From an uncultured Algibacter sp. (GTDB lineage Bacteria; Bacteroidota; Bacteroidia; Flavobacteriales; Flavobacteriaceae): a DNA stretch of 64,000 nucleotides. A program made the position numbers and the translations under genes. A model generated the notes under the pieces. It was not told the DNA's origin and did no database searches. It was given only the letters and a program-made list of their open reading frames with translations. Below, piece by piece: positions 2,288 to 31,862 of this stretch. The DNA is taken from assembly GCA_947502405.1 (NCBI GenBank), contig CANMZT010000003.1:124001-188000 (forward strand). The letters are read 5' to 3'. The first letter of the stretch is position 1. Each line of letters opens with the position of its first letter.

Positions 2288-2293
2288 AGTCAA

Positions 2294-2494: not shown

Positions 2495-2516
2495 TACTGA
2501 ATTTCTTTTAATACTG

Positions 2517-7927: not shown

Positions 7928-7936
7928 GATTTTAAG

Positions 7937-9373: not shown

Positions 9374-9416
9374 ATTGTATTTTATACTGATCTTATGCTG
9401 TTTATAACTGTTGATT

Positions 9417-10328: not shown

Positions 10329-10388
10329 TTTTCTTTTAATTTTAATTCTCCGTTAAAGGATAACTCATATTTTTTAGAATAGGTTTGA

Positions 10389-11021: not shown

Positions 11022-11060
11022 TCTATTTTGGTTTATTTTTTATTAATTAACCGTTCGCAA

Positions 11061-12491: not shown

Positions 12492-12520
12492 AATTTAATT
12501 TTTTAGTTAGTTAGTTTTGG

Positions 12521-14014: not shown

Positions 14015-14030
14015 CTCAATCAGTTCTCTA

Positions 14031-15320: not shown

Positions 15321-15324
15321 TGAT

Positions 15325-16536
15325 TTATATTGTTATTTCTTCTCGTTTAGGAGGTACATGCACATCCTTTAGCAAATCTTCCTCTTTGCCATTATAGGTT
15401 TTTGTAATAGTTTTACCATCTCTAGTTAACCCATTAAAAGCACCTTTATCTACTAAGCCCCATATAGCGTATTTTGCCTGCCCTTTAAGGTTGATTAATC
15501 CAAAATGATTTTCAGATCCTAATGGGTTTGCGGCATCTTTCCACTGCTCATCAAAAGCTTCAAAATAAAAGCATGAAATTCTTTCTTTATTAGTCCATTC
15601 TCTAGTCAACTGATAATACTTTCCAGATTTGTATTCATCTGCAGCCTTAGATCCATCTGCACCATAATGTTCATTGGAAATAGTTGCCCAACCTGTTTCT
15701 CCGATATGTACAGGTTTGTTTATGCCCAAGCTTCTCATATAGTTAGCAACACTATCATATTGCTTTTGGGAAAACAATATGGCTCTTTGCATTGCCGAGT
15801 CTACTTTTTCTTTATCTGATAGTTCTAATTCTTCTTCAGAAACTAACCAAAAGGCAGGATTATAATGAGAGTTGTGCATAGGATAGGTATGCATTGATAT
15901 ATAATCTACTGCCCTGATTAGGTTATTTAAATCTTCGTTATGGTAATTAGGGTCTCCTCCCCAAGACGAAAAATCATCTGAACTTGTTATCCATAAATCT
16001 CCAGGTAATTCGCCTTTATGCTTTAAATCTTGTAAATAATTTACCCATTTTAAAATTACACGAGGACGCACAAAATAGCTCGTGGCCCAATTAACCATTG
16101 CTTCGTTACCAACAGCAATAATTTTAACAATATTTGGGTACTGTTTTGCTAAAGCTACTGCTCGCTCTATTTCACCTGCATTTTGTTCACTCTCTACCTC
16201 ATGATTTGGAACTTTATCTGTCCATGCGTTTAAGCAATCAATCCAAGCTCCCAGCATCACATACATTTCAAACGAGGAATCTTCATTCTTTAATTCACTA
16301 ATGGCTTTAAGTAAATTGGAAGCCTGTTGTAATTGTACGTTATAGGTTCGCAATATTTTAATACCCATAGCCGATAATAATTTCATATCATCCTTAAGCT
16401 CATTTATGGTGGGTTGGATATCTCTTGTTTTTTGACGATAACCGCCGTAGGAAATGGCTAAGTAATCAGGGTTTCCTAAAATATCGGCAGCACTTAATTG
16501 CTTTTCCGTATGTGTCTTTTTCTTAGATTCTAGCAT
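15325..16536 (-). CDS. GH17 family glycosidase without signal peptide (beta-1,3-glucan-active)
   Basis: The 403-residue GH17 protein has an intact catalytic pair, Glu145 (IAVGNEAM) and Glu280 (HIGETGWAT). The start is firm, since the codon just before the ATG at 16536 is an in-frame TAA, and the N-terminus MLESKKKTHTEKQLS is charged, so there is no signal peptide and the product should stay in the cytosol. Its body matches the lipoprotein paralogue at 14031-15320 from LGNPDYLAxSYGGYR onward. The pair looks like a tandem duplication in which one copy lost or gained the export signal. It lies 48 bp after the phosphorylase gene, which fits a joint cytosolic pathway for imported beta-1,3-oligoglucans. 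Confidence 0.88.
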   Translation of the reverse strand: MLESKKKTHTEKQLSAADILGNPDYLAISYGGYRQKTRDIQPTINELKDDMKLLSAMGIKILRTYNVQLQQASNLLKAISELKNEDSSFEMYVMLGAWIDCLNAWTDKVPNHEVESEQNAGEIERAVALAKQYPNIVKIIAVGNEAMVNWATSYFVRPRVILKWVNYLQDLKHKGELPGDLWITSSDDFSSWGGDPNYHNEDLNNLIRAVDYISMHTYPMHNSHYNPAFWLVSEEELELSDKEKVDSAMQRAILFSQKQYDSVANYMRSLGINKPVHIGETGWATISNEHYGADGSKAADEYKSGKYYQLTREWTNKERISCFYFEAFDEQWKDAANPLGSENHFGLINLKGQAKYAIWGLVDKGAFNGLTRDGKTITKTYNGKEEDLLKDVHVPPKREEITI

Positions 16537-16584: not shown

Positions 16585-19500
16585 TTACTTCTTTATGGAT
16601 ACAATAATCATCTTAACCTCTCCATTTCTTTCAAAAAGTGATTTTGAAACAGATTCATCTAAAATAATATTGTTGTATTTAAGCTGTTTTCCATCATTAT
16701 AAACAACTTCCAAACCTTCTGCTTCTGATAATTTATAAATGATTGGAACTTGACAATATGTAAAACATAACGAGTCTTTATCAAGTGTAAGTTCTTGCTC
16801 TACTTTATTTACATCTATATAATTGAATGTTTTTGGAGTATTCAAAAACTCTTTTTCTTGAAGCATACTTGGTTTAAAAATAATTTTTCCCGCTTGAACA
16901 AATACACCTAATTCTCCAAACCTACTTAGTACATCTTCTTTTACCTGACCCGTCATTCCTGGCTGTTGAGCACCTTTAGTTGCTGGTGTATGCGAATAAG
17001 GGTCTGTTGGGAAAGCACCATATAATTCTGGCGACTTGTGCACCCCGATTCCTGCATTTATTTCATAATAATGATCGAAAAGTCGTCCAATTATTGCAGC
17101 ATCCTCGTTCTCGTTAACTGCTCTTAAACAATTTTCTTGAACCGCTAATAATAACTTAGAAACCATATGCCAATAAATAGACCCTAAACCTTCATAACCA
17201 AAAAATGTACCTGAGCGACCTGTAAAAGACTTATGATCAAAAATATCTTCAAAGGTTTGAAGCAAAAATGCTTCGTCTTTTTTAGCTAAAGATTTATAGT
17301 TTTCATCTAAATTAGATAAAGCTTCTTTTAAACTATTTGCGTTATTAAATGCGCCATTAAAATGATATCCTCCATTTACATCCTTCTCAACAACTTGTCT
17401 ATTGCCATCTGCAATAAGGCGTTTAAGTAGTTCTGAGTGCTCTACTTTACTTGCTGGAATATTGTTCTTTTTATCAAATCGAGGAAGTTCCTTGTTGGGG
17501 TACAAAATATAGCTATACTGGTCTTCTCTAAATAGCGCGCTACTTTTCAATCCATCTAATAAACTTAATGCTTGAGTAGGAGAGAGGTAGCCAGCACTTA
17601 AAGCTGCTACTTGACCTTCTAACATTTCAGATAGATATGAAATGGAAACCTCTGAGTAATTTTCAACCGTCATTAAATTATAAGCATGATACATATTATC
17701 ATCACGCTTATTGGCATTAATGCTATGTTCAAAATAAGATTTTGAAATCTCAATAAAGCTTGATATATCTGCTAAACTTAATTCTGTTTTGGAACTTGAA
17801 AATCCATATTTGTAAATTTTAGCTCTGTATTTACTTCCTGCGCCGCCCAGTCCATCGAGTACTGTTTTACGATCTTTATCAGAAATATTTCCTGATAAAA
17901 TATTTGCGTTACCTTGAAGTGTTTCAGAAACTTGATTGAAGAAATTTGCTAATTCTTCTGAAACTTTTACGGATTCAATATCCGATTTTGAAACAATACC
18001 TTCAAAGAAACTTAAGAACCTATAGATGTAGTATAGCGTTACCATAGATACACCATTACCCACCAAAGCATTATTTGCATCATTCCATTCTGGCCTTTGT
18101 GTATTTAACCAAATACCGCCTTCTGGAATAAAGTTTGAAATTTTTGAAAGTACGGTAGCCAATATTTTTTCAATAAAATTAACTCTATAAATATTTGCAT
18201 TTTGATCTAGTAACAAGGCACCGTCGGCACCTAATTGATCTCTACGTTTATGAATTGTTCTATCTAATTCATAGTTAAAATCAATGGTGTCTTTAGGGTT
18301 CTTGAGTGTATCCTCGTAACTTTTAATAATATAAGGTACATTAGCATATACGAATACATCTTGATTGAAGCGTTTCTCTAAAGCTCCGGGATAATGACCC
18401 TCAATAATTTCCAAGAATTTTAACAGGTAGATAATTTGATGATCGCCCCAGTAACCAATGTAAGACCAAGGATCGTGTTCTTCAATAACTTCCCAATCAA
18501 AACCACCTTTAGTTACTCGGTATGGATTATACCCTTCAAAAGTTGTGGCGTTTAAGAACTTATGAATCATGCCTTCTATATACTCAGGATAGGAATGCGC
18601 TAAAGCTTCCCAATTTTGGAAAATATCTCGCCAATTACCTTCATAATCTAAAATCTTTGAACCATCAACTTCACTTGTTGTGTTAATAGAAAATTTGTTC
18701 CAAGGTCTACTTGGATCACCATGTCTCCTACTAAATTTTAACGGTAAATATTCAAAACATAAACGTTGAAAATCTTTGTTGTTATGGTTTTCGGTAAGCT
18801 TTTGAATGTCTGCTAAACTAAATGTGTCGTTTAACCCATTTAAAACCGATTGCTTTTCTTTGAAAACATCTTTATTTGCGCCAATAATGTATTTTAAGAA
18901 ATCGGACTTCTCAATGGTATAACCATCGTCAAAAATACCACCACGCATGATGTTAAACAACGTGTTCGAGAAGTGCCTCATGTTAGTTAAAGGATCCTCT
19001 GTTTGTTGTAATCCGTCAGATGCAGCGGTTAAATCGATTAGATTCTTTGTTCCTAGATCAATATCATTTTGAACTAAGCTTTCTAAATCAGCTTCATTTT
19101 TAATTGTTTCCGAAATTTGAACTACATCTGTAATAGATTGATTCACATTAGTAACAAAACTCCAACTCTTAGAAGCTTCTTCAGCTAATTCCATTTTAGA
19201 AACAGTAAAATAGGCTCCTTTTTCTGCTTTGATATCTACTTCTTGGGATACCGCATTGCCTTTTCTAAAATTATCTAACTGCAATGAGGAAATTAAATAG
19301 GTTGGGGAGTCTAATCCAAAAGACCATACAACATTTGATTTTAAAGCTTCACTAGGTTCAGCCTTATCAACAATTACAGAACTTAAAGCATAGACACCTA
19401 AACCAACTTCTTCTTGTAACTCACTCTTTTTGTATGCATCAACTAAGTTGCTTCTTGAATTTTGCAAATCTGCTGAAACCGTTGCAGGCAAAATATTCTG

Positions 19501-20031
19501 AAAACCATCAAGAATAGAAACTTCAACTTTATCATCAAAGTTGTTAATTAGGGTAGATTTTTTTACAAATCCAAACCTGTTACTTGAATTCCATTGGTAT
19601 CTAAAAGTTAATCCTAAGTCTAAATTATTTTCTTCAAAAACAACCTTATTTCCATATCTGTTTTTATACAGATTGGTTTGTGTTTTATAAATCCCTGTTT
19701 GACGAATAGAAAATGGCTCCCAAAGATACTTTTTACCGTTTTTTATCACATGAAAAATAGCTTTACTGCCTGTGGTTTCAGCCATTTCAGTAATTTTATC
19801 ATCAGTGTAATAAGGGAATAACGAATAATCAGCATTTTTACGTCCTGCTGTTAAACCTCCGTTACTTGAAATAAACATCCAATGGTTGGAGTCACTAACA
19901 ATACTCATAAAAAACGGTCGCATTTTATCACTATTCGAAATCTTATAATACATTTCGTTATTAAAAGTGATTAATTCGCCTTTTATATCCATTGTTTCGT
20001 TTGAAACATTATGCGCTTCTGTAGTAATCAT
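16585..20031 (-). CDS. GH149-like beta-1,3-oligoglucan phosphorylase
   Basis: The 1148-residue protein has no signal peptide. Its size and layout fit GH149 rather than the shorter GH94: an N-terminal beta-sandwich region with WMFISSNGGLTAGR near residue 51, then an (alpha/alpha)6-barrel with EGNWRDIFQNWEALA (about 464-478), YWGDHQIIYLLKFLE (about 527-541) and RPEWNDANNALVG (about 646-658). Asp651 in that last motif is the probable general acid, and QPGMTGQVKEDVLSRFGELG lies near the C-terminus. GH149 enzymes reversibly phosphorolyse beta-1,3-glucan chains to alpha-glucose-1-phosphate in the cytosol. The assignment rests on remembered family motifs, so GH161 or GH94-like alternatives remain possible. 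It is preceded by an intra-operon hairpin and followed by a cytosolic GH17. It would save ATP in laminarin use. Confidence 0.8.
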   Translation of the reverse strand: MITTEAHNVSNETMDIKGELITFNNEMYYKISNSDKMRPFFMSIVSDSNHWMFISSNGGLTAGRKNADYSLFPYYTDDKITEMAETTGSKAIFHVIKNGKKYLWEPFSIRQTGIYKTQTNLYKNRYGNKVVFEENNLDLGLTFRYQWNSSNRFGFVKKSTLINNFDDKVEVSILDGFQNILPATVSADLQNSRSNLVDAYKKSELQEEVGLGVYALSSVIVDKAEPSEALKSNVVWSFGLDSPTYLISSLQLDNFRKGNAVSQEVDIKAEKGAYFTVSKMELAEEASKSWSFVTNVNQSITDVVQISETIKNEADLESLVQNDIDLGTKNLIDLTAASDGLQQTEDPLTNMRHFSNTLFNIMRGGIFDDGYTIEKSDFLKYIIGANKDVFKEKQSVLNGLNDTFSLADIQKLTENHNNKDFQRLCFEYLPLKFSRRHGDPSRPWNKFSINTTSEVDGSKILDYEGNWRDIFQNWEALAHSYPEYIEGMIHKFLNATTFEGYNPYRVTKGGFDWEVIEEHDPWSYIGYWGDHQIIYLLKFLEIIEGHYPGALEKRFNQDVFVYANVPYIIKSYEDTLKNPKDTIDFNYELDRTIHKRRDQLGADGALLLDQNANIYRVNFIEKILATVLSKISNFIPEGGIWLNTQRPEWNDANNALVGNGVSMVTLYYIYRFLSFFEGIVSKSDIESVKVSEELANFFNQVSETLQGNANILSGNISDKDRKTVLDGLGGAGSKYRAKIYKYGFSSSKTELSLADISSFIEISKSYFEHSINANKRDDNMYHAYNLMTVENYSEVSISYLSEMLEGQVAALSAGYLSPTQALSLLDGLKSSALFREDQYSYILYPNKELPRFDKKNNIPASKVEHSELLKRLIADGNRQVVEKDVNGGYHFNGAFNNANSLKEALSNLDENYKSLAKKDEAFLLQTFEDIFDHKSFTGRSGTFFGYEGLGSIYWHMVSKLLLAVQENCLRAVNENEDAAIIGRLFDHYYEINAGIGVHKSPELYGAFPTDPYSHTPATKGAQQPGMTGQVKEDVLSRFGELGVFVQAGKIIFKPSMLQEKEFLNTPKTFNYIDVNKVEQELTLDKDSLCFTYCQVPIIYKLSEAEGLEVVYNDGKQLKYNNIILDESVSKSLFERNGEVKMIIVSIKK

Positions 20032-20136: not shown

Positions 20137-21012
20137 TTAATCTATAGACCCTCCATAGTATACTCTCACGTAATCAACATACATAGTTTGAGGAAATACA
20201 GTATCTTCTGTAGGGTTGCCATCAAAATTACCACCAACAGCCAAATTAATAATCATAAAAAATGGACCATCATTGAAAACCCAATCAGAGCTATCAACAT
20301 CCTCTTCATCATCTAAGTCTTGTGGTGCAATCCTGTTATATAAAACATCATCTACATAATAATTGATATAATTTGGGCCCCATTCAACACCGTAAATATG
20401 AAATTCTGTATCAACGCGAGAATTTTCAAACTCATATTTTTTCAATAAAGGGTTTGCTCCCGAATACCCTGGACCATGCACAGCGCCACTTACAATTGTT
20501 GGTTGTGAACCAGCATTTTCCATAATATCAATCTCACCACAAAAAGGCCAAGTAACCTCATCAATATTAGCACCCAATAACCAGAAAGCTGGCCACATGC
20601 CTTTGCCATATGGCAATTTCATTCTAGCCTCAAACCTTCCGTATTTTTGTTTAAATAATCCTTTTGTTAATATTCTAGCTGATGTATATCCTGAGCCTTC
20701 AAAATCTTCCTTGATAGCAGTAATTTTTAGCATACCATCTTCTACAACAACATTTTCTGGTCTATCTGTATAATATTGAAGTTCATTATTACCCCATCCA
20801 TTATCACCTGTCCCTATGTCATAAGTCCAGAGGTCACTATTTAATGCTCCATTCTTGTCAAACTCATCAGCAAAAGTTATCTGATTGAAAGTTGTAACCT
20901 TTTGCGTTTCATCTGGATTACAACTTAATGTAATCGCTCCTGTAATAAAAAGTACTAATGAAGTACTCAGTAAACGGAGTGATCTTGATTCTACTTTATT
21001 CTTGAAATTCAT
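20137..21012 (-). CDS. GH16 family endo-beta-1,3-glucanase (laminarinase-like) lipoprotein
   Basis: The ATG at 21012 is chosen over the longer frame because it yields a lipoprotein signal with lipobox LSC (Cys31) and does not overlap the preceding gene (stop at 21026). The 291-residue product carries the GH16 catalytic signature GEIDIMENAG with Glu160, Asp162 and Glu165. Laminarinase-type flanks are also present: FADEFDKNG, WGNNELQYYTDRPENV, and the C-terminal YVDYVRVYY strand. GH16 laminarinases cut beta-1,3-linkages inside the chain. The anchor and the SusCD context place it at the cell surface or in the periplasm, making oligosaccharides for import. It has one catalytic domain and no appended binding module. 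Confidence 0.93.
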   Translation of the reverse strand: MNFKNKVESRSLRLLSTSLVLFITGAITLSCNPDETQKVTTFNQITFADEFDKNGALNSDLWTYDIGTGDNGWGNNELQYYTDRPENVVVEDGMLKITAIKEDFEGSGYTSARILTKGLFKQKYGRFEARMKLPYGKGMWPAFWLLGANIDEVTWPFCGEIDIMENAGSQPTIVSGAVHGPGYSGANPLLKKYEFENSRVDTEFHIYGVEWGPNYINYYVDDVLYNRIAPQDLDDEEDVDSSDWVFNDGPFFMIINLAVGGNFDGNPTEDTVFPQTMYVDYVRVYYGGSID

Positions 21013-21025
21013 GTTTTCTTTTTTT

Positions 21026-22465
21026 TTAATTTTCGGTATAGAAATATATATTATCCAGAGACACGTTAGCAATTGTGCCGTCAGATACAAATAACATCAT
21101 ACCAATAGCTTCTCTTGCGCTTAATCCACTAAAACTGGATAAAGGAATATCAAACTGTACCCAATCGTTACTTGTTAAATCAGAGCCATTTACCCTAAAC
21201 GTGCCTGATACCTCATTGCTTTGTGTGAAATTATTATGCAATGATATATCAATATAATCAGCTGCATCTACAATTTCGTTCGCTCTAATATCAATATGTA
21301 AGAACTCCATTTCAGTAGCATCTACTGGCGGTACTCCGCTTCCTCCTCTTCCATAAAACTCAATAGCTACAAAATTTAGTAAGGTGTAATTTATTACGTT
21401 ACCTCCATCTTCCTCAATAGATCCCCCAAGAGTTGTTTGAAAAGGTTCGTAGAAGCCATTGTAGTTATCTACCGCAACATTGGCAAATACATCACTAAAT
21501 ATTGATATAATATCAATATCCACCGCTTCAACAGTCAATGACCCAGCGGCATTCAAACCACCAAGGCTTGCTGTTATGGTAGCAAAAGCATCTGGTTCTC
21601 CTGTTTCGGGGTCTACATCACCAGCACCATCAACCGATACAACACCTTGTTCATTTACAGAGGCTACAAATGGATTTGATGTTTCAAAATCAAAATAGTA
21701 AGGTGTCACAGAAACTGTAACATCTTGTCCATTAGGAAGATTGGCTGTATAAGTAAAGCTGGTTAATGGGACAGTAGTATCAACATTTGCTTGTGCTGTT
21801 TGATCTTGCCCTCCAAGAATTGCAGGTCTAGGCTGTCCTATTGTACCTAATTTTTCAAACTTTACTTCATCTAACCAAAAAGTAAAGCCTATACCATTGT
21901 TATTTGATGTGCCAGCAGAAAAAAGAAACATACCTCTTTCCTGAACTAGCTTTGATGCATCTGGAATTGGAATAATATACTTTTTCCACTTAGTAGACAA
22001 TTCAATATTAGACATATTTACCGCATACTTGTTTTTATCAAAATCAGTCCCAAAACCTACCTGATCAATTGTAGTTGTTGTAGAACCTTTAGCCCAAAAC
22101 GTCAAAGCGTCGTATTCCGTTAAATCTCTACCTTTTCCCCTATCTCTAAAAATACCTCCTATGTATCCTCCATCGGGATCTGTTGGAGAAGGCACATCAA
22201 TCCTTATAGATGACCTACCGCTGTATGCTTCATTTTCATCTGTACCAAATCCTTCTGGATTAGCACCTGTTGCGGGATCAAAAGATTCAAAAAACTCGTC
22301 TGTAAGTCCTACTGGTGCATCTGTGTATATTTCTGGATTACTACCAAAAGTAGCAACTTCAACATCGTCAGAAAAACCTCTTTCACAACTTATCAATGCA
22401 ATACACATTAATGCTATAAAAGGAAAGACAATGTGATATTTATAAATTAATTTTTTCATGATCAT
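21026..22465 (-). CDS. PUL lipoprotein with carbohydrate-binding-like modules (candidate surface glycan-binding protein)
   Basis: The 479-residue protein has a lipobox LISC (Cys27). About residues 35-210 form a jelly-roll-like module (EAYSGRSSIRIDVPSP, ALTFWAKGS, FWLDEVKFEKLG). About 215-325 look like a bacterial Ig-like (Big_2-type) domain with NPFVASVNEQGVVSV and ATITASLGG. About 326-479 form a second module (IDIISIFSDVF, MEFLHIDIRA, VSLDNIYFYTE). No catalytic residues were seen. The last module closely resembles the third module of the T9SS protein at 4444-6453. A lipoprotein with multiple binding-like modules just downstream of SusCD fits a surface glycan-binding protein (SusE/F-like role). 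Both the ATG at 22465 and the one at 22459 are usable as start. Confidence 0.8.
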   Translation of the reverse strand: MIMKKLIYKYHIVFPFIALMCIALISCERGFSDDVEVATFGSNPEIYTDAPVGLTDEFFESFDPATGANPEGFGTDENEAYSGRSSIRIDVPSPTDPDGGYIGGIFRDRGKGRDLTEYDALTFWAKGSTTTTIDQVGFGTDFDKNKYAVNMSNIELSTKWKKYIIPIPDASKLVQERGMFLFSAGTSNNNGIGFTFWLDEVKFEKLGTIGQPRPAILGGQDQTAQANVDTTVPLTSFTYTANLPNGQDVTVSVTPYYFDFETSNPFVASVNEQGVVSVDGAGDVDPETGEPDAFATITASLGGLNAAGSLTVEAVDIDIISIFSDVFANVAVDNYNGFYEPFQTTLGGSIEEDGGNVINYTLLNFVAIEFYGRGGSGVPPVDATEMEFLHIDIRANEIVDAADYIDISLHNNFTQSNEVSGTFRVNGSDLTSNDWVQFDIPLSSFSGLSAREAIGMMLFVSDGTIANVSLDNIYFYTEN

Positions 22466-22473: not shown

Positions 22474-25400
22474 TTATTTACCAATGTTAATATGTATGTA
22501 CGTTCTTATTTCCCACTCAGTGCCATCTGGGAATCCAGCAGGACTAATAGTTGGCTCTGTTGCAAATTCTGGAGTTTGATTTGGTAAGAAACGTGGTGAA
22601 TTTTGATCTAAAGAACGCCACATTCCTCTGATACCAATTTGAGTACTAGGTAAAATAAACCAATCTGGTTTTCCTAGAGTAGTAGATACATCTAACATTA
22701 ATTGAAGTGGATATGTTAAGTTAAAATCGCGGTGGTAATCAAATGGCCCCCAATCATTTATTTTAACATGAGACTGTACTTTAAACTTGTTATAAAGCAT
22801 TCTTATATCTCCACCGAAACGTTTTATTGTTCTTTGGGAGTCTCCATTTGCTTGTCCATTACCATAATAGAAGTTACCTATAATACCTAAATCACGGTTA
22901 AATTTTGAAACTATGCGAGTGTGAGCTTCCCACAAGTCTTGAGCAGGTGCAGATTCGCCAAAAGCAAAGAATGTTCGATCTGCTAAAAACCCTATGTGGC
23001 CATCCATTTGTGTTGGTAAATGTCTATATACAAACCCAGCACTGACAGCAAATTTGGCGTCTTCAGATCTATCATTATCCCAAGCATACATCCAAGAACC
23101 TGGTGTTGGGTCATAAGTTAGTAATATTTCACCTGCTGTAGTTTCTCTATTACCATTTCTAACCGCAAAAGGATCATCAATTACGTTTCTTAAACGTCCC
23201 GGTCCTGGTGCGTTATTAGGCATCGCATCAACAAGTGGCTTTTGCCACATAAAATTAGGAGCGATTTGTAAATCTCCAGCAGAAAATGTGAAACCAGACA
23301 AGAAATTAGTCATGTTCCCACTCCCAGAATCTTTAAGTCTCCATCCTGTAAACGTTCTAGTTTGATCTACACCTCCATTAGCGACTAAGCCCATGTATGA
23401 TCCTTGAGCATACATATTAAAACTACCTTTTTGATAGGTAATTTTAGCTTTAGCACCCCAATTATCTTCACTATTAATCTTATCTACAACAACTACATCT
23501 GTATTTTCTTGAAACATTTGGAAAGAACTACCGTTTAGAGGATTACCACCCCACATACCCCCTAGGGTTACCCCAAAATGACCAAACTCTCTTTCCAAAG
23601 CAAGTGTTGCTCTTTCTGTTGGCCAAGGAGTAATAACACCTGAACGTATTTGATTTGTATTTAATACACGACGTCCTGAATCATCAAACTCTAGGTCTGT
23701 ATTAAAATCCCTGTGATATATTCCTGTTACATCCCATTTAAGAATGTGTTTTGAGTATTTTAATAACATTGTTGGGTTGGCTCCCCACCATAGTTGCGGA
23801 CCAAAAGCTGCCTTTAAGCCTTCTAATTCTCCTTTAGCATCTACTTCTATTCCTAAAATTTCTCCATTATAGATATCTAGGTTTGGACCATAGTTTGCTT
23901 CAGGGTAAAGGTTAAAAAAATCACCTTCATAAGCCCAATGATAATGCCCTGTTCTGTAAAACCCTCTTAAATCAAATTCTTTTGCATTCCACTCAAATTC
24001 AGCCTGATAAACTCGTAAACGGTTGTTATCAGTAATGGTTATTGGTTCCCCTTCTGAATTATTGACCGTTACTGGTCTACCAACGTTCTCATAAAATATT
24101 TCATTTATTGGATTACTAGCAACATTACCTAAAATATTGAAGTCAACATTAGCTTTCATATTTGAAGCTGGTTTTCCTTCAACACCAACAAAATAAGATT
24201 GCATATGGTCAAACCCTAATTGGTTTGGAAAGGTTTGTGTATCAGTAGGGTCTGCTGTCTCTGGCGTAGTTATTAAACTGCCGCCAGTGTTAAATGTGGT
24301 AAATTGAGCTGACAATCTGCTTATACTTAATTTTTGTGAATCACTTCCACCAAGTGCAGCTTTGTCACCACGCGCTCTTAAAACGGCATCCATGATATTA
24401 ATATTATCAAAATAATTTTGAATAAAATCCAAATCTACACCTTCTCCATAAGGGTTTAATGCGTGTGCGTCTTTTAATGTGTAATATGAAGCACGAGGAT
24501 ATAAATCATATAAACCACGAGCATCAGTTGGCCCTTTAGCACAAATTCCAAACCATTCTTCATTCATGTTATTAGAGCCATCTTTTGTATCATGATAATA
24601 CCCACCATTGCTCCATGAAGCACCTGTTTCATGTGAATCGGCATTTTCTCTATCATCAAAACCTAACTTCCACCAACCATCACTAAATTGAAAAGTAAAT
24701 CCACCTATTGAATTTCCTACTTTTCCTAATCCAGCAGCATTCTCGTAAATCTCTTTCCAGTTTAATAAATTGTAATGTGCTTGCCAATATTGATCTTCTT
24801 TGTCTGCCAATGCATTGTATGCATCAGCACCAAATTCTGTAAACATTACAGGTATGTCTAATTGATCTTTAACTACTTGAAAGAAATCTCCAAAAGATTC
24901 ACCTCTATATGTATTAGCACCGTAAACATCAACGTCCTTACATTCTTCAGCTATAATATCTATAAATAATACATCACCATTACAAATCGCAACTGGGTGA
25001 TTTGAATCCATTGCCTTCATTTTTTTAGCAACTTCATTCATCAATCGATACATTGGTCTTCCTCTATTTTCTCCAACTGCTCTTTTCTGTTCTTCACCTT
25101 CTGGGAAGTCTTCAGTTTCTGCACCTTGCCAGAATAAACCATAGTTATTCTCATTACCCATCATATACATCAAAATTCCGGGAACGTCTTTATAGTCTTC
25201 AACCAGTTTAATCATTTCAGAAACAAGTAACTCTTGTGTTTTCTCATCTGAGTAATCAGTAACTGGTGTCCAAACCCCATCCAACGTTAAACCGTAACGT
25301 CCGAATTGATGATTTAATAAGGTATAAATGCCATATTTTTCGTAAATATATTTTACCCATTTAGCAGGTACACCTACATATTGTCTAACAACATTGACAT

Positions 25401-25656
25401 TCATGTTTTTTAGAAGTCCCATTTCAGTGTCAAGACCAGCCTTAATAACATCGTCTGATTTTTCATAGAAATTCGCATTTGTTACATCAGTGCCAATAGG
25501 AACATAATCCCAATTCACACCATTAATCATAAAGTCTTTACCATCTACAACTAATTTGGTTCCTTGATCATTTTTTACTACTTCAACTTTATTGGCCTGA
25601 GCAAAAATTGCTGAGGTAAATAAGAGAAACACTAATTTTAATAAATTGTTTTTCAT
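22474..25656 (-). CDS. Clan GH-A glycoside hydrolase fused to a probable outer-membrane beta-barrel
   Basis: The start is set at the ATG at 25656 (MKNNLLKLVFLLFTSAIFAQ), giving a 20-residue signal peptide and 1060 residues; the longer frame would place 21 polar residues before the signal. Residues about 22-410 read as a (beta/alpha)8 hydrolase of the GH2/GH5 kind: FMINGVNWDY, acid/base-like Glu169 in YMMGNENNYG, nucleophile-like Glu274 in MFTEFGADAY, and GGFTFQFSDGWWK. Residues about 440-1060 have no enzyme motif. They are rich in aromatic, Gly and alternating hydrophobic stretches (FDLRGFYRTGHYHWAY, FNMYAQGSYMGLV, KFAVSAGFVYRHLP) and end EIRTYIHINIGK, like a 16-plus-strand porin. GH2, GH5 or GH158-like assignment of the N-part is open. 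Flanked by PUL lipoproteins, it could be an enzyme tethered on its own pore. Confidence 0.75.
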   Translation of the reverse strand: MKNNLLKLVFLLFTSAIFAQANKVEVVKNDQGTKLVVDGKDFMINGVNWDYVPIGTDVTNANFYEKSDDVIKAGLDTEMGLLKNMNVNVVRQYVGVPAKWVKYIYEKYGIYTLLNHQFGRYGLTLDGVWTPVTDYSDEKTQELLVSEMIKLVEDYKDVPGILMYMMGNENNYGLFWQGAETEDFPEGEEQKRAVGENRGRPMYRLMNEVAKKMKAMDSNHPVAICNGDVLFIDIIAEECKDVDVYGANTYRGESFGDFFQVVKDQLDIPVMFTEFGADAYNALADKEDQYWQAHYNLLNWKEIYENAAGLGKVGNSIGGFTFQFSDGWWKLGFDDRENADSHETGASWSNGGYYHDTKDGSNNMNEEWFGICAKGPTDARGLYDLYPRASYYTLKDAHALNPYGEGVDLDFIQNYFDNINIMDAVLRARGDKAALGGSDSQKLSISRLSAQFTTFNTGGSLITTPETADPTDTQTFPNQLGFDHMQSYFVGVEGKPASNMKANVDFNILGNVASNPINEIFYENVGRPVTVNNSEGEPITITDNNRLRVYQAEFEWNAKEFDLRGFYRTGHYHWAYEGDFFNLYPEANYGPNLDIYNGEILGIEVDAKGELEGLKAAFGPQLWWGANPTMLLKYSKHILKWDVTGIYHRDFNTDLEFDDSGRRVLNTNQIRSGVITPWPTERATLALEREFGHFGVTLGGMWGGNPLNGSSFQMFQENTDVVVVDKINSEDNWGAKAKITYQKGSFNMYAQGSYMGLVANGGVDQTRTFTGWRLKDSGSGNMTNFLSGFTFSAGDLQIAPNFMWQKPLVDAMPNNAPGPGRLRNVIDDPFAVRNGNRETTAGEILLTYDPTPGSWMYAWDNDRSEDAKFAVSAGFVYRHLPTQMDGHIGFLADRTFFAFGESAPAQDLWEAHTRIVSKFNRDLGIIGNFYYGNGQANGDSQRTIKRFGGDIRMLYNKFKVQSHVKINDWGPFDYHRDFNLTYPLQLMLDVSTTLGKPDWFILPSTQIGIRGMWRSLDQNSPRFLPNQTPEFATEPTISPAGFPDGTEWEIRTYIHINIGK

Positions 25657-25703: not shown

Positions 25704-25738
25704 TACAAAGCGATATCATGAATTGATACCGCTTTGTA
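25704..25738 (-). other. Intra-operon hairpin before the hydrolase/barrel gene
   Basis: A 9-bp perfect stem (TACAAAGCG at 25704-25712, CGCTTTGTA at 25730-25738) is extended inward by six more pairs with one mismatch (25713-25718 with 25724-25729), leaving a 5-base loop. It lies in the 102-bp gap after the 465-residue lipoprotein gene. No T-run follows, so an RNA-processing or stabilising role, or partial termination, is more likely than full termination. Confidence 0.6.
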
Positions 25739-25758: not shown

Positions 25759-27156
25759 TTATTGCTTAATCATTCTAAAATACCAATAGGCATTATTAGC
25801 AACATCAGTGATAATGTATACTTCTAACATATCACCATTTAGTTTGGCAATATAGGTTATGGAGTCTGGTGCTGCACTTGGCGAACCTAACTCGCCTTCA
25901 TTAACAACTTTTGCTAACCCTAAATGCGCTCCTTGACCCTCAATTGTCAAACTCTCACCCGCTTCATCAAACGTATACGTTGCAGGGTTAGATCCATTAT
26001 GAGGAAAAATAGGTGTTCCACAACCCTCAGGGTCCATACCTTGGAATGGTTCTAACCATGTTTCTGTTCCAAAAACATTTTGGAATGTGCCGTCTTCATT
26101 AAATATGTATTGATCATCATATAAGCATGGTCTCATATCTAACTGCTCTTGGTTTATAGAGAACCATGGGCCTCCGCCGTTAATAATATCTGGTCCAACA
26201 GCTAACGACCCTGGTGTTGGATCTAATTGCCATGTTCCAACAATAGATGGCGCTGCATCTCTAACAAGCTTAAAGTACCAATAAGCGTTATTTGCCACAT
26301 CTGTTAGAATAAAAATATCTAATACATCACCGTTTAATTTTGCTATGTAAGTTATTGAGTCTGGTGCATCAGCAGGAGACGCTAATTCTCCTTCGTTAAC
26401 TACTTTTGCTAAACCCAAATGTGCTCCTCTTCCGGTAATTGTTAAACTTTCGTTCGCTTGATCATAAACATACTCAGCAGCTGGTGCGTTATGTGGAGAT
26501 AAAGGTGCCCCACAACCTTCTGGATCCATGCCTTGGAATGGTTCTAACCATGTTTCAGCTCCAAAAACATTTTGAAATGTTCCGTCTGCATTAAAAACAT
26601 ACTCGTCATCATATAAACACGGTCTCATCTCTAACTGTTCTTGGTTAATTGAAAACCATGGGCCTCCACCATTAATAATATCTGGACCCACAACTAAGGA
26701 TCCTGGTTCTGGAGCTAGTCTCCATGTACCCACTATTGGTGATGTTTCTGTACCTGTTCCTGGATTAGTAACCACAGGTTTATAAATAACCGTGTGATCT
26801 TTTGAAATTGACACATCGTCTCTACCATCTAGTGCCGCAGTAACTGTAATTGTATATGTAACAGACTCTTCAACCTCTGGATAAGTATATGTAACCATAG
26901 GACCGCTTGTTTCTCTGATTACTTCTGCAATGTCTCCGCTTGGGTCTCCAAAATCTACTGTATATAGAATTCTACCATCTGGCGGAACTGTTGTTGCAAT
27001 AACACCAACCTCATTACCTTCTGGGTTTAATGTGGCTATATTAAAATCTAATCCTTCAATAATATTTAATTGATCATCGTCTTCACAGGCTACTGAGACA
27101 CCTAGTAAAAGTAACAATGCCAAGACTTTGTATATTCCTTTTTTTAATAGTTTCAT
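25759..27156 (-). CDS. PUL lipoprotein with PKD-like domain and a duplicated C-terminal domain (candidate glycan-binding protein)
   Basis: The 465-residue protein has a lipobox VAC (Cys24). Residues about 30-130 form a PKD-like module (VDFGDPSGD, VTYTYPEVEESVTYTITVTAAL). Two copies of a ~160-residue domain follow, at about 141-299 and 305-465. Each opens IVGTWxLxPxPGSL, contains GPDIINGGGPWFSINQEQL, MRPCLYDD and WLEPFQGMDPEGCG, and ends NAYWYF. The copies agree at roughly four residues in five. Two conserved Cys per copy could form a disulfide. No catalytic motif was seen. Directly following susD, the gene is in the usual place for a surface glycan-binding protein, and the many conserved Trp/Phe/Tyr residues fit sugar stacking. 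The domain family is not one I can name with certainty. Confidence 0.8.
   Translation of the reverse strand: MKLLKKGIYKVLALLLLLGVSVACEDDDQLNIIEGLDFNIATLNPEGNEVGVIATTVPPDGRILYTVDFGDPSGDIAEVIRETSGPMVTYTYPEVEESVTYTITVTAALDGRDDVSISKDHTVIYKPVVTNPGTGTETSPIVGTWRLAPEPGSLVVGPDIINGGGPWFSINQEQLEMRPCLYDDEYVFNADGTFQNVFGAETWLEPFQGMDPEGCGAPLSPHNAPAAEYVYDQANESLTITGRGAHLGLAKVVNEGELASPADAPDSITYIAKLNGDVLDIFILTDVANNAYWYFKLVRDAAPSIVGTWQLDPTPGSLAVGPDIINGGGPWFSINQEQLDMRPCLYDDQYIFNEDGTFQNVFGTETWLEPFQGMDPEGCGTPIFPHNGSNPATYTFDEAGESLTIEGQGAHLGLAKVVNEGELGSPSAAPDSITYIAKLNGDMLEVYIITDVANNAYWYFRMIKQ
25762..26736 (-). repeat. In-frame tandem domain duplication (two copies of about 480 bp)
   Basis: Copy 1 is at 26260-26736 and copy 2 at 25762-26244, both within the 465-residue lipoprotein gene. 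Protein conservation is high and long stretches are unchanged (for example 20 residues around QGMDPEGCG and AHLGLAKVVNEGEL), indicating a fairly recent duplication or ongoing gene conversion. Confidence 0.85.
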
Positions 27157-27185: not shown

Positions 27186-28748
27186 TTAATATCCTTGGTT
27201 TTGTCCCCATCTTTGTTCTGCCTGAGCCAACTCTAATTCAACTCTTGGAATAGGAAAAACCTCGTGTTTGTTTTCAACAAAAGTGATTACTTCAAAATCA
27301 TCAGGTTTTGAAGCATTATATGCATCAAAAGCTGCTTTAGCACGACCTGTTCTAACAAGATCGAAAAAACGATGTCCTTCTCCTGCTAATTCTTTACGAC
27401 GTTCTTCAAAAATAGCATCAACTAGAGACCCTTCACTTGTAGAGTAATCATTACTATTATCTCCATTGGCTCTTGCTCTTACCATGTTCAAGTAAGTTTC
27501 AGCATTAGCACCACCACTTTTAGCTTCAGCTTCAGCTGCCATTAACAGAACATCTGCATAACGAATAGCTCTGTAGTTGTTTTTATGAACAAGTGCTTGT
27601 TCATTAGCATTTCCTGCTTTATCGTCTTTTCGAGGAATATATTTCTGATTATAAAATCCTGTATCTTCTCTTGGAGCAGAATACAATGAATTATCTTCTA
27701 AAGCTTTTACATCTCTTAAATCTAAAATAGTAATATCACGTCTTACATCATTTGCATCAAAAGTGTCATATAATGCTTGAGAAGGCAATAAAAACCCCCA
27801 ACCCGTAGCGTATACGTCATCAGTAAATGGTGATCTTGGTCCATTAAATTGAACAAAATAAGACCCTTCACTACATTGCAAACACTCCCAACCAGCACCT
27901 TCTATATTGGTGTATTGAATTTCGAAAACTGATTCTGGTCCATTTTCTCCAGCTGTAGTAAACATATTTGTATAATCATCTCCCATTGTCAAACGATACT
28001 GATTACCTGATATCACTTGGTTTAGTACTGTAGCGGCATCTTCAAATTCACCATCATACAAATAGGCCTTTCCTAGTAATGCTTGAGCTGCCCCCTTAGT
28101 TACTTTGTACGGTAAATCTTGGGTTATTGGTAAATTAGGTATAGCCTCCTTTAAGTCCTCTTGAATAAGCCCAAAAATCTCAGAAGTACTACTAACTCGT
28201 TCTATGGTCAGTTGGTCTGTAGCTGATATTCGAGAATCTACAATTCTATTAACACCTCCTCTTTCTTCAACTTTTAACGGCACATTCCCAAAAAATTTAG
28301 CTAATTCAAAAACATAGTAAGCTCTTAAAAAATAAGCCTGTGCAATAATTTCATCTTTTCCTGAAAAATCTAACGCATCTTTATTTTCTAATAAATAATT
28401 CACTCTACTTAATCCGGCATACATTAATTGCCAAATACTTCTTAATTGTTCCTCATCATCAGGACTGTGGAGCATGAAATTCACATTTTGAACTACAGGC
28501 TGATCATAATTAAATGCATCCCCGCCAGAGCCATAATCATCTGAAGCTGAAACCGCTATTAAATTGTTCCAAAATGTTGCTTGTAATAAATCGTAAGCTC
28601 CGACTAGAGCTTGCTCATACTCTTCTTCTGTATTGAAAAAATCTCCTGCATTTGGCCCTATCGGGTCAACTTCAACAAAATCATCACAAGCTACCAAGAC
28701 AGTGAATACTGTAAATAATATGTACTTTAATTTTTTAATTTTTTTCAT
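27186..28748 (-). CDS. susD-like: SusD-like nutrient-binding outer-membrane lipoprotein
   Basis: The 520-residue protein has lipobox VAC (Cys21) and a typical SusD/RagB layout: an N-terminal SusD-like segment (DPIGPNAGDFFNTEEEYEQALVGAYDLLQ), tetratricopeptide-like helices (IIAQAYFLRAYYVFELAKFFGNVPL) and the C-terminal RagB/SusD region with YADVLLMAAEAEAKSGG, YLNMVRARA and IFEERRKELAGEGHRFFDLVRTG. It forms the lid of the SusC channel and binds the glycan at the surface. The gene lies 6 bp after susC, as expected for a co-translated pair. Substrate specificity is inferred from the surrounding beta-1,3-glucan enzymes. Confidence 0.97.
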   Translation of the reverse strand: MKKIKKLKYILFTVFTVLVACDDFVEVDPIGPNAGDFFNTEEEYEQALVGAYDLLQATFWNNLIAVSASDDYGSGGDAFNYDQPVVQNVNFMLHSPDDEEQLRSIWQLMYAGLSRVNYLLENKDALDFSGKDEIIAQAYFLRAYYVFELAKFFGNVPLKVEERGGVNRIVDSRISATDQLTIERVSSTSEIFGLIQEDLKEAIPNLPITQDLPYKVTKGAAQALLGKAYLYDGEFEDAATVLNQVISGNQYRLTMGDDYTNMFTTAGENGPESVFEIQYTNIEGAGWECLQCSEGSYFVQFNGPRSPFTDDVYATGWGFLLPSQALYDTFDANDVRRDITILDLRDVKALEDNSLYSAPREDTGFYNQKYIPRKDDKAGNANEQALVHKNNYRAIRYADVLLMAAEAEAKSGGANAETYLNMVRARANGDNSNDYSTSEGSLVDAIFEERRKELAGEGHRFFDLVRTGRAKAAFDAYNASKPDDFEVITFVENKHEVFPIPRVELELAQAEQRWGQNQGY

Positions 28749-28754: not shown

Positions 28755-31700
28755 TTAAAAATTTAAATTAACACCTAGCAAATATGTTGCTGCTATTGGG
28801 TAGAAACCCTTATCGATTCCACCACCAAGAGGAGAACCATTTGTAGCAGATGGGTCAAAACCAGTATAGTCTGTAATAGTAACTAAATTGTTACCAGAAA
28901 CATATATTCTAAATTTACTAACACCTAACTTGTCAAGTGTGTTCTGGTTGAAAGAATAGCCTACCTGTACATTTTGTAGACGAACAAATGATGCATCCTC
29001 AACATGAAAATCATTAAAAATACTCGTGTTAATTGATCCTCCAGAAGAAGCTCTAGGTACGGAATTACTTGTTCCTGTTCCTTGCCATCTTTCTAACATG
29101 TAAGTACCTCTGTTAGCAAACAAATCTATACGCTCATAATCTCTAATCATATCGTTCCCTAAAGAGGCAAATGCATTTGCGCTAAAATCTATGTTTTTAT
29201 AATTAAAACCGATATTAAAGCCCATAGTTATCTCTGGAATTGGGTCTCCAATATTCGTTCTATCACCATCATCAATATAACCATTGTTATTAGTATCAAC
29301 GAACTTTAAATCTCCCGGTTGAGCATCAGCATGATAAACATTATCGTTAGCCGTGGCATTTGCGTTAAGCGCATCAATCTCAGCTTGTGTTTGATAAATA
29401 CCATCTGTTTTGTAACCGTGAAAATATCCTAGAGGTAAGCCAATAACCATTCTTGATATACCCGTTTGACTTAATCCAACACCATACTCTCCACCATCAG
29501 GAGGTAGGTTGCCATTAAGTGAAGTTACCTCGTTATCAATTACCGTAAAATTAAATCCTGCATTAAACCTAAAATCATCAGAGAAATCATCACTGAAGTT
29601 AATTCCCAATTCTACACCCTTATTTTCAACTGTTCCAGCATTAATGTATGGAGAGCCCGCTCCTGGAGCGGAAGCACCTAATATACCAGATGCTTGGGGT
29701 TGGATTAAAAGATTTTTTGTTTGTTTTTTAAAAGCATCTAGTGTCAAGCTAAGTTTATTATTAAACATTCTTATATCTAAACCAATGTTAGCCGTTTCTT
29801 GTTCTTCCCAAGTTAAATCTGGGTTTCCTATTTCACCAGCACCAACACCATTAGGTAAAAGTTCTGGATCAACAATATTTGGGTCTCCAGAATCAATGGT
29901 GGCCTCACCATCAAGTCTTGTAACAAAAGCAAAGTTGTTTGGAATTCTATCATTACCTATGATACCATAACTTGCTCTAAACTTTAAAGAATTGACAAAA
30001 CCGTCTTTATTGAAGAAATCTTCGTCTGAAATATTCCAACCTATTGATCCAGACGGAAAATAACCTACATTATTATCTGAATTGAACCTTGAGGATACGT
30101 CTCTACGTATCACACCAGATAACAAATATTTCCCTTTGTAGCTATATTGAAATCTGCTAAAGATAGAAGATAAACGCACATCAAATTGCTCTGCACCACG
30201 TTCAAACTCTCCTGGGTTAAAACGATTCACGATTTGTCCTTCAACTCTATCACCAATCCATCCATCTACCAAAGCATCTGAAGCAGAGTTACTACCATCT
30301 CTTAACATATTTCCTGTATAACCCCAGAAATGACCTCTTGTTCTAAATACTGAAGTCCCTAGCAATAACGTTAGATCATGATCTTCTCCGAACGTATTTG
30401 TATAGTTTATGTAATTATCAAATGTATAATCGTTATACAAATCAACATTATCAACTACCTCATTAATCCTACGAGAATTTGATTTACTAAAATCGTTACC
30501 GTAATCAAATATTGGATTAAAAACGTCATTTAACACATTAGAATAATTTACTTGAATTTTAGAACTGATTGTGAAGTGGTCTAAAAACGTATAATCTAAA
30601 CCTAAAGTTCCACTATATCTATCTACTCTAGTTGTATTATGTGAATTAGCTATTTGAGCTAATGGATTGATAATTTCAATTTGAGAAATATCTGTTGGCT
30701 GTGAAAAATCTCCGTTTTCATCTCTTACAGGTAGGTTGGGATTTATATTAACCGTGCTGTAAAGCACAGAACCAATCCCGCCTTCTGGTAAGTTATTTTT
30801 CTTAGATTTTGTATATAAACCTGTAGCAGATAACTTTAAGTTTTCTAAAATATCGTACTGATATCCTAATCTTGCAGTAAACCTTTCATAATTAGCTTTT
30901 CCTCCTCCAACAATTCCATCTTGAGTAAGGTAGGCAACACCAAAAGAATAAGCTGATTTTTCAGTACCGCCACTACCACTAAAATTTATATCAGAAATGG
31001 CTGCTGTTTCAAAAACTTCATCTTGCCAATCAGTACCTTCTCTTGGGTAAACAAAAAATCTTGTTTCGTCTGCAGCATCGTTAACATACTTAGCAAATTG
31101 TGTTGGATTCAACAAATCTAGTTTGTTACTGGTTTTTTGAAAGCCTGTGTATGCATCAAAATTAAATTTCAATTCTGAATTCTTTCTACCAGACTTTGTT
31201 GTTATTAAAATAACCCCATTGGCACCACGAACACCATAAATACCAGCTGTGGCATCCTTAAGTACATTCATGCTTTTAATGTCATTTGGATTAATTACTG
31301 ATAAATCCTCAATAACATTACCATCAACCAATATTAATGGTCTGTTATCTCCATTTGTGGTAATACCACGAATACGAATATTCGATCCACTACCTGGAGA
31401 ACCAGAGTTAGAAGTTACATTTACACCTGGAATTTGACCTTGCAATGCTTGTTCCACTCTTTGTGGGTTAAGCTTTTCAATTGCCTTAGAATCTACAACA
31501 GAAACGGCTCCTGTTACTTCCTTTTTTCTTTGAGTTCCATAACCCACAACAACGACTTCGTCTAATTTCGCTACATCTTCTTCCAATGTAACAGTTAGAC
31601 TAGCGCTGCTTGTAACAACAACTTCTTTAGTTATATATCCAATATAACTAACAGTTAATGTTGATCCTGATTCCACATCCGTAATTGTGAAATTTCCATC

Positions 31701-31862
31701 AAAATCTGTTACAGCTCCTTTACTTGTGTTCTTAACAATTACATTGGCTCCTGGAATGGGAAAACCTGTATTGTCTTGGACATTACCACTTACATTAATG
31801 TTTTGCGCACTAACTAGAGCAGTAAAAAAGAGTGCTAAAATCTTTAATAGCTTGTGTCTCAT
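28755..31862 (-). CDS. susC-like: SusC-like TonB-dependent outer-membrane transporter
   Basis: The 1035-residue protein starts with a signal peptide (MRHKLLKILALFFTALVSAQ). It has an N-terminal carboxypeptidase-regulatory-like domain (NVSGNVQDNTGFPIPGANVIVKNTSKGAVTDFDGNF), the LDEVVVVGYGTQ segment, a plug domain (about 115-225, including GSNIRIRG and ILKD-like NVLKDATAGIYGVRGANGVILITTKSG) and a 22-strand barrel ending YLLGVNLNF. SusC proteins import oligosaccharides captured by SusD, powered by TonB. It is the first gene of the PUL operon, with a promoter about 50-90 bp upstream and the regulator gene behind it. Laminarin oligosaccharides are the inferred cargo. Confidence 0.97.
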   Translation of the reverse strand: MRHKLLKILALFFTALVSAQNINVSGNVQDNTGFPIPGANVIVKNTSKGAVTDFDGNFTITDVESGSTLTVSYIGYITKEVVVTSSASLTVTLEEDVAKLDEVVVVGYGTQRKKEVTGAVSVVDSKAIEKLNPQRVEQALQGQIPGVNVTSNSGSPGSGSNIRIRGITTNGDNRPLILVDGNVIEDLSVINPNDIKSMNVLKDATAGIYGVRGANGVILITTKSGRKNSELKFNFDAYTGFQKTSNKLDLLNPTQFAKYVNDAADETRFFVYPREGTDWQDEVFETAAISDINFSGSGGTEKSAYSFGVAYLTQDGIVGGGKANYERFTARLGYQYDILENLKLSATGLYTKSKKNNLPEGGIGSVLYSTVNINPNLPVRDENGDFSQPTDISQIEIINPLAQIANSHNTTRVDRYSGTLGLDYTFLDHFTISSKIQVNYSNVLNDVFNPIFDYGNDFSKSNSRRINEVVDNVDLYNDYTFDNYINYTNTFGEDHDLTLLLGTSVFRTRGHFWGYTGNMLRDGSNSASDALVDGWIGDRVEGQIVNRFNPGEFERGAEQFDVRLSSIFSRFQYSYKGKYLLSGVIRRDVSSRFNSDNNVGYFPSGSIGWNISDEDFFNKDGFVNSLKFRASYGIIGNDRIPNNFAFVTRLDGEATIDSGDPNIVDPELLPNGVGAGEIGNPDLTWEEQETANIGLDIRMFNNKLSLTLDAFKKQTKNLLIQPQASGILGASAPGAGSPYINAGTVENKGVELGINFSDDFSDDFRFNAGFNFTVIDNEVTSLNGNLPPDGGEYGVGLSQTGISRMVIGLPLGYFHGYKTDGIYQTQAEIDALNANATANDNVYHADAQPGDLKFVDTNNNGYIDDGDRTNIGDPIPEITMGFNIGFNYKNIDFSANAFASLGNDMIRDYERIDLFANRGTYMLERWQGTGTSNSVPRASSGGSINTSIFNDFHVEDASFVRLQNVQVGYSFNQNTLDKLGVSKFRIYVSGNNLVTITDYTGFDPSATNGSPLGGGIDKGFYPIAATYLLGVNLNF

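Follow-up and report, generated by a model that had tools for sequence, protein, structure and literature searches.

A predicted hydrolase-barrel fusion with a constant lipoprotein partner in laminarin loci of marine Bacteroidota

Why would a glycoside hydrolase be built into the same chain as an outer-membrane barrel? The question is raised by a gene of an uncultured Algibacter sp. that lies in a laminarin polysaccharide utilization locus (PUL) on the stretch of 64,000 nucleotides analysed here (contig CANMZT010000003.1, positions 124,001 to 188,000; below, the window, with positions counted from its first letter). Diatoms and brown algae use laminarin as a major storage glucan. Its main consumers include marine Bacteroidota, and its uptake is thought to use SusC/SusD. 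We found that the gene (coordinates in Table 1) encodes an N-terminal hydrolase of clan GH-A followed by a predicted outer-membrane beta-barrel, and we are highly confident that hydrolase and barrel form a conserved fusion whose lipoprotein partner is constant. Our searches of open-access papers found no description of such an enzyme-barrel fusion.

A conserved fusion that keeps its lipoprotein

The fusion is widespread. Among 395 genomes of the phylum, 47 match it at E <= 1e-8: 33 carry the whole protein, 10 the enzyme only (E < 1e-100) and 4 give weak matches. These counts are lower bounds, each genome having been scored on its best two candidates for the whole protein, best three for the barrel and best four for the lipoprotein. 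The 33 include the window's own genome and one (G260) in which the gene is split over two contigs; identity, the own genome excluded, is 53-73%. One of the 10 enzyme-only genomes, G291, holds a broken fused copy. Within a set of 60 relatives (own genome included) the whole protein is present in 12, and 4 more have only a distant enzyme match. A profile of the barrel found it in 35 of the 395 genomes. The intact copies number 33 and all belong to this fusion; the others are a stub (G176), the broken copy in G291 and the split-contig piece in G260. The idea that the barrel is a free family paired with other enzymes was rejected, since every intact copy in these genomes lies within this fusion. 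In a collection of one genome per species (84,980 species), at least 584 stretches encode a relative of the barrel; the best 80 are the named loci referred to below, and these are therefore mostly close relatives. Enzyme and barrel share one open reading frame (ORF) in 79 of the 80, including one locus with a broken enzyme part (L114), and the exception (L157) lies at a contig end. The named loci come from Winogradskyella, Kordia, Flagellimonas, Psychroserpens, Nonlabens, Maribacter, Polaribacter and other genera.

The fusion is accompanied by a lipoprotein, which the original prediction had overlooked. This partner is the next gene downstream in all 73 scored named loci (7 of the 80 were unscored). 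In further loci outside the named set it accompanies every one of 59 fused copies, from 50 distinct genomes, and 1 of 25 enzymes scored as alone, many of these stand-alone loci having only about 1.5 kb of flank; that single case, L183, is a fused gene interrupted by stops. Another locus (L189) retains a barrel piece and the partner without the enzyme. With a 21-row profile of the lipoprotein, 33 of the 395 genomes gave a copy at E < 1e-100, and these are the same 33 that have an intact barrel. The G361 copy runs over two contigs; G201 has its best copy some 10 kb away from the fusion, next to which lies a lipoprotein that matches weakly (E 2e-37). Fifteen further genomes match the profile at E <= 1e-30, G183 over most of its length and the others over the C-terminal part. 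The G183 relative (C1:379424-380620, profile positions 44-470, E 1.5e-84) occurs in a genome without the barrel and is the only near-exception to co-occurrence. Of the 20 genomes whose enzyme is stand-alone or broken, 5 match the lipoprotein at E <= 1e-5, and only G474, which also has a fused copy, matches beyond the C-terminal part or a 48-position stretch. Thus, the lipoprotein tracks the barrel and not the enzyme. SusC-SusD and BtuB-BtuG are barrel-lipoprotein complexes, and this pattern is as would be expected if the present pair were a complex of that kind. The partner has no Pfam domain above cut-off; among PDB entries, its profile matched several proteins at their Ig-like repeats, and one carbohydrate-binding protein.

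The chain begins with MKNNLLKLVFLLFTSAIFAQ, by reading a cleavable signal peptide. We took the ATG at 25656 as the start; an upstream ATG at 25719 would give an alternative of 1081 aa, and orthologs align from the MKNN start. Of 90 fused rows only 4 showed a lipobox pattern, each reading FAQ or LAQ after the Cys. In an alignment of 36 full-length orthologs, which is the basis of the conservation values, the AlphaFold2 model and the enzyme profile, conservation is 0.78 in the enzyme, 0.75 in the barrel and lowest, 0.58, in the linker.

What is the C-terminal part? The AlphaFold2 model (mean predicted local distance difference test score, pLDDT, 72; predicted template modelling score, pTM, 0.50) has a TIM barrel, a helix up to residue 435 and then long antiparallel strands over residues 443-1057. 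By our own count on the model there are 22 strands, or 24 including 601-607 and 614-620; the 16-18 strands expected earlier were too few. Tight turns (e.g., 497/500, 557/561, 638/641, 691/694, 743/746, 793/796, 920/923 and 955/958) alternate with loops of mostly 11-37 residues. Hydrophobicity alternates along the 24 predicted strands with a score of 2.53 versus 1.39 +/- 0.20 in within-strand shuffles, none of 2000 of which was as high; strands 443-459 and 923-935 show hardly any alternation. When the two faces are set by hydrophobicity, the lipid side consists mainly of L, F, A, G, V, Y, I, T and W and the lumen side is mainly polar. Lumen-facing positions are more conserved than lipid-facing ones (0.796 vs 0.711, a plain difference with no significance test), and three of eleven long loops are near-invariant (0.87-0.96). 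A Foldseek search returned GH158, GH2 and other glycosidases mixed with the outer-membrane barrels BtuB3G3, MOMP, LptD, PirA, PfeA, FepA, chitoporin, ZnuD, OprC and OccAB3. The signal peptide, the amphipathic antiparallel strands and the short turns alternating with long loops place the C-part in the outer-membrane barrel class on the model. That assignment, which the original prediction had made, is a well-supported one, with AlphaFold2, Foldseek, strand amphipathicity and conservation all agreeing.

Nothing in the barrel part scores above cut-off in Pfam, and it has no NCBIfam or PDB sequence match. Neither Plug nor TIGR04056 matches the fusion in Pfam or NCBIfam at E <= 1, and no autotransporter family was found for it in either. 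We considered a SusC whose plug had been swapped for an enzyme and rejected it, as hhalign against 20 SusC rows gave a probability of 0.3 in what is a sequence-level test on low-diversity alignments. Residues 849-869 (window 23050-23112), DPTPGSWMYAWDNDRSEDAKF, form a presumed periplasmic turn that is unusually long and has a conservation of 0.82. It may act as a gate, and a similar periplasmic loop exists in AlgE.

An enzyme near GH158 and GH157

The catalytic pair named in the original prediction, Glu169 and Glu274, is intact at its motifs. N168, E169, Y250 and E274 do not vary across the 36 full-length orthologs of the alignment, nor across a larger set of 67 distinct enzyme domains of which 18 are stand-alone. 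With N168-E169, E274, a predicted TIM fold and clan GH-A enzymes at the top of the fold lists, the domain belongs in clan GH-A. Many core blocks of the modelled TIM barrel have pLDDT 80-94, and residues 330-366 are mostly below 50.

Which family does it belong to? The nearest solved relatives of the enzyme part are the GH158 and GH157 beta-1,3-glucanases, and direct sequence search assigns it to neither. In VIA-align, where rows no more than 1 Z apart are tied and cover only residues 14-419, with the barrel outside the comparison, GH158 ranks first (9p2f, Z 28.6, root-mean-square deviation (rmsd) 8.2 over 303; 6pal, Z 27.5), followed by beta-glucuronidases, GH5 mannanases and the GH157 laminarinase 9g4n (Z 26.3, rmsd 3.3 over 307). 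The GH158 enzymes (BuGH158, 6pal; GH158(Pro), 9oro/9p2f), top in both Foldseek and VIA-align, share with the fusion the clan GH-A fold, the catalytic pair and a beta-1,3-glucan PUL, yet identity in the structural alignments is 17-20% and the direct sequence match is not significant. LaGH157 (9g4n, 9fz9) shares the TIM barrel at 18% identity and has no membrane barrel. A phmmer search of the PDB with the whole protein gave only a beta-galactosidase (E 0.0018) and GH158 9oro (E 0.088), with 6pal absent at E <= 10, in line with the earlier statement that the N-part fits no single CAZy family. The 36-row enzyme profile reached 6pal (E 8.7e-7), 9oro (9.7e-5), 9fz9 (1.9e-4) and 9g4n (1.8e-3), and it matched GH2 enzymes too. 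We therefore did not assign the domain to GH158 by sequence: the direct search is not significant, and the profile that reaches 6pal and 9oro also reaches GH157 and GH2. In that profile match the catalytic pair of BuGH158, E137/E220, aligns with both motifs of the fusion; BuGH158 carries a C-terminal Ig-like domain where the fusion has a membrane barrel (PMC7157763).

Membership in GH2 was likewise rejected. The only Pfam match of the fusion is Glyco_hydro_2_C over residues 33-292, at 22.2 bits barely above the cut-off of 21. GH2 enzymes combine a TIM barrel with N-terminal beta-sandwich domains; no other GH2 domain matches in Pfam at E <= 1, and the predicted TIM barrel begins shortly past the signal peptide. 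NCBIfam has no family above cut-off for the fusion. We infer a putative endo-beta-1,3-glucanase outside known families, which would add a GH-A group without an assigned family. A 'GH2 beta-glycosidase' is listed upstream, with GH16 and GH149, in the Muricauda laminarin clusters of PMC13188888, whose account of the clusters mentions no barrel and whose main text does not contain the words SusD and outer membrane. In the AsT0115 record cited there (VCNI01000001.1; L107), the fusion lies between a regulator and the lipoprotein-GH16 pair. The Muricauda gene is very probably the same gene; if so, the probable 'GH2' label that it bears in a common marine cluster would be corrected. The window's own genome also encodes a distant relative of the enzyme domain (L017; G000:C14:84664-85389), with 25% identity in a 606-residue frame.

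A possible route for glucan and its rivals

What might such a fusion do? As the best single mechanism we regard a channel for beta-glucan that carries a hydrolase tethered on the periplasmic side and has a surface lipoprotein as its partner, with the considerations for and against it about evenly balanced. The C-part of about 615 residues would form a barrel of about 22-24 strands, with conservation on its lumen side and in three long loops as in a substrate path. The N-terminal clan GH-A domain would hang from the periplasmic end of the barrel and cut glucan as it arrives. The adjacent surface lipoprotein would bind glucan and deliver it at the mouth of the barrel, in the role that SusD has for SusC. 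Since the hydrolase would remove the incoming chain, uptake could run on cleavage without TonB. We infer the substrate, the channel activity, the periplasmic position, the role of the lipoprotein and the independence from TonB. The fuller version, in which two components make a TonB-independent "digesting porin", with an endo-beta-1,3-glucanase under its own specific pore pulling laminarin in by cutting and an obligate surface lipoprotein feeding it, the pair taking the place of SusC/SusD in laminarin operons across many marine Bacteroidota, is a possibility that we put forward tentatively.

On which side of the membrane does the enzyme sit? The original prediction offered cutting at the mouth of the pore or release of short sugars into the periplasm; we lean to the latter, on the basis of the short turns and of the stand-alone enzymes, and away from the surface mouth. 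Known outer-membrane barrels have short turns on the periplasmic side. If the short turns of the model are taken as periplasmic, both barrel ends, including the start of the first strand, lie in the periplasm. In several genomes the enzyme occurs without a barrel, in many cases next to GH149, GH17 or GH16. A lipobox pattern was recognised in 7 of 19 stand-alone rows, 3 more (L051, L195 and L197) have a plausible lipid-attachment Cys by eye, and the signals of the remaining rows mostly look cleaved by signal peptidase I (SPI). Surface-export signals in Bacteroidota are acidic, as worked out in Capnocytophaga, Bacteroides and Flavobacterium (PMC5080379). At positions +2..+7 the recognised stand-alone lipoproteins have a mean of 1.0 acidic residues and GH17 proteins 0.87, versus 2.2-4.2 for SusD, the PKD-type lipoprotein, GH16 and the partner; this low acidity suggests a periplasmic enzyme. 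An adjacent acidic pair within these positions occurs in 0 of 7 stand-alone lipoproteins, 3 of 52 GH17, 1 of 84 partners, 44 of 67 GH16, 20 of 25 SusD and 13 of 13 PKD-type proteins; this stricter criterion does not tell the groups apart.

The fusion shares with SusC/SusD a large barrel and a regularly adjacent surface-type lipoprotein in a PUL, and in many operons the fusion pair occupies the SusC/SusD place. It differs in having no plug or TonB-receptor family match, in carrying a catalytic domain and in a partner that is not a SusD homologue. Of the named loci, 67 extend 8 kb or more upstream; 39 of these have no SusC/SusD homologue in the fetched stretch, a class of operon that the original prediction had missed. 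A homologue of the PUL regulator lies directly upstream of the fusion in 43 of the 80 loci, including 34 of those 39, with a median gap of 288 bases; a Bacteroidetes-type promoter motif, which would point to a promoter of the fusion's own, was found in 3 of the 43 gaps versus 1.3 in shuffles. In many loci the fusion is the only predicted outer-membrane channel near laminarin enzymes. If the proposed route is real, an enzyme-barrel fusion with its own lipoprotein would be a second way of importing laminarin besides SusC/SusD, and might account for laminarin clusters that appear to have no SusC/SusD.

Several observations count against this reading. SusC/SusD is nearby in the window's own operon and in 28 of the 67 loci, and SusC genes occur elsewhere in 38 of 38 searched genomes of loci without a nearby pair (39 genomes were searched, best 16 candidates each; L096 does not come from this group, and L169 was left out). 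Distant SusC/SusD and TonB-driven uptake may therefore still serve. A plugless pore of 22-24 strands would be leaky unless closed by its loops, and eight of the eleven long loops have a conservation of just 0.60-0.81. The model is of moderate confidence; the Foldseek barrel matches are weak (TM-score 0.29-0.43 on the target, rmsd 12-16 Å), with no clear favourite among TonB receptors, MOMP, LptD, chitoporin and OccAB3. The acidity argument for a periplasmic enzyme is weak: the partner's acidic pair lies mostly outside +2..+7, and most stand-alone versions come from families other than those that defined the export signal. Finally, the barrel can be lost. In G176 (L054, about 2037-3464) a stand-alone enzyme gene is followed, in frame past its stop, by a decayed barrel start; this still reads as the beginning of a barrel, so the copy has lost its own. 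On a midpoint-rooted enzyme tree the fused/alone label switches at least 8 times, at least 6 of them forced by well-supported branches. The tree includes 18 distinct stand-alone rows; L186, which ends inside the enzyme, may reflect a gene break or an error of assembly, and L053 is truncated at the end of its contig. Since the barrel was lost in several lineages, the enzyme can work without it.

Could the barrel instead export its enzyme? Type V autotransporters and the patatin-like PlpD also have an N-terminal enzyme and a C-terminal barrel in one chain, and an autotransporter-like surface display, in which laminarin would be cut outside next to SusC/SusD, is the strongest rival, though we consider it rather unlikely. 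The order passenger, linker, C-terminal barrel resembles type V secretion, helix 421-435 comes immediately before the first strand, the PUL's GH16 and binding proteins have surface-type lipoprotein signals, and PMC7157763 describes BuGH158 as an enzyme predicted at the cell surface. However, stand-alone enzymes align to the fusion as far as residue 405-429, so much of the helix region is enzyme and not a pore-spanning segment, and the linker is the least conserved part of the protein. Autotransporter and PlpD barrels have 12 or 16 strands, and about 22-24 is far from the 12 of classical autotransporters. Display would need neither the conserved loops nor the fixed lipoprotein, and type V autotransporters and PlpD are not known to have a glycan partner lipoprotein; the stand-alone lipoproteins are also less acidic after the Cys than surface ones.

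Less probable again, and in our view unlikely, is a non-conducting barrel that serves mainly as an anchor or scaffold joining the enzyme to its partner lipoprotein, with import left to SusC/SusD. The presence of SusC/SusD near the fusion or elsewhere in the genome fits this, as do the lost barrels, some stand-alone versions having a lipid anchor instead. The greater conservation of the lumen side and the three near-invariant loops are more than a mere anchor would need, and the 39 loci without SusC/SusD in the fetched stretch also speak against it. That the C-part is a large soluble beta-structure we consider very improbable. The mean pLDDT and the TM-scores to solved barrels are low enough to raise the question, no sequence match to any outer-membrane family was found, and the C-terminus, ...INIGK, lacks the customary aromatic last residue. 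Against this stand the strong strand amphipathicity with its hydrophobic lipid side, the alternation of short turns with long loops, and Foldseek matches to many unrelated outer-membrane barrels; the outcome that would have spoken against a barrel, a soluble beta-sandwich or beta-helix, did not appear in the AlphaFold2 model or in Foldseek. A comparable fusion of another make is FbGH17b of Formosa, an MFS-GH17 fusion in a laminarin PUL of marine Flavobacteriia (PMC6246565). Both are fusions of a transporter with a carbohydrate-active enzyme, but FbGH17b joins a helical MFS protein to a C-terminal GH17, whereas here an outer-membrane barrel carries an N-terminal enzyme.

The laminarin locus

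The genes of the PUL from the regulator onward lie on the same strand (Table 1), and beyond the MFS transporter the PUL continues with GH17, MFS and GH17. In the 80 named loci, some of them cut by contig ends, we found the lipoprotein in 78, GH16 in 76, GH149 in 64, GH17 in 60, SusD in 27, SusC in 26 and the PKD-type lipoprotein in 22.

Table 1. Parts of the fusion gene and neighbouring genes of the laminarin PUL, in window positions
Feature	Position	Strand	Remarks
GH-barrel fusion gene	22474..25656	(-)	1060 aa, stop codon included; ORF intact
Signal peptide, residues 1-21 (SPI type, ...FAQ/A)	25594..25656	(-)	read from sequence
Clan GH-A TIM barrel, residues 22-400	24457..25593	(-)	AlphaFold2, VIA-align, profile matches
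Codon of Glu169, predicted acid/base (GNEN)	25150..25152	(-)	invariant
Codon of Glu274, predicted nucleophile (TEFG)	24835..24837	(-)	invariant
Linker, residues 401-442, helices 409-417 and 421-435	24331..24456	(-)	AlphaFold2
Predicted outer-membrane beta-barrel, residues 443-1057	22486..24330	(-)	AlphaFold2, Foldseek, strand amphipathicity
Long loop, nearly invariant, residues 568-600	23857..23955	(-)	conservation 0.91
Long loop, nearly invariant, residues 756-781	23314..23391	(-)	conservation 0.87
Loop GPFDYHRDFNL, nearly invariant, residues 970-980	22717..22749	(-)	conservation 0.96
Partner lipoprotein (CERGFSDDVE after lipobox), 479 aa, possibly glucan-binding	21026..22465	(-)	next gene downstream of fusion
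GH16	20137..21090	(-)	Pfam Glyco_hydro_16 E 5.6e-24; TTG-start ORF
GH149 beta-1,3-glucan phosphorylase	16585..20031	(-)	NCBIfam NF058639, 1800.7 bits
GH17-related	15325..16536	(-)	Pfam 26.0 bits, below cut-off 28.2
GH17	14031..15320	(-)	
GH30	12521..14086	(-)	
MFS sugar transporter	11061..12491	(-)	
PKD-type lipoprotein (CEDDD)	25759..27156	(-)	PKD match below Pfam cut-off
SusD	27186..28748	(-)	Pfam
SusC	28755..31862	(-)	TIGR04056, 838 bits
Y_Y_Y/LuxR-type PUL regulator	32092..34905	(-)	

The GH16 ORF shares 65 bases with the end of the lipoprotein ORF, and its true start is probably further in. Window positions 6986-16536 of this PUL hold four GH17-type genes, one GH30 and two MFS transporters. 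The PKD-type lipoprotein has an internal duplication, with two very similar lipocalin-like halves of about 150 residues (IVGTW...DGTFQNVFG... twice). Sorting domains of type IX secretion (CHU_C, Por_Secre_tail) occur at window positions 2517-4343, 4444-6453, 43316-44785 and 47324-48733, one of them with FG-GAP repeats.

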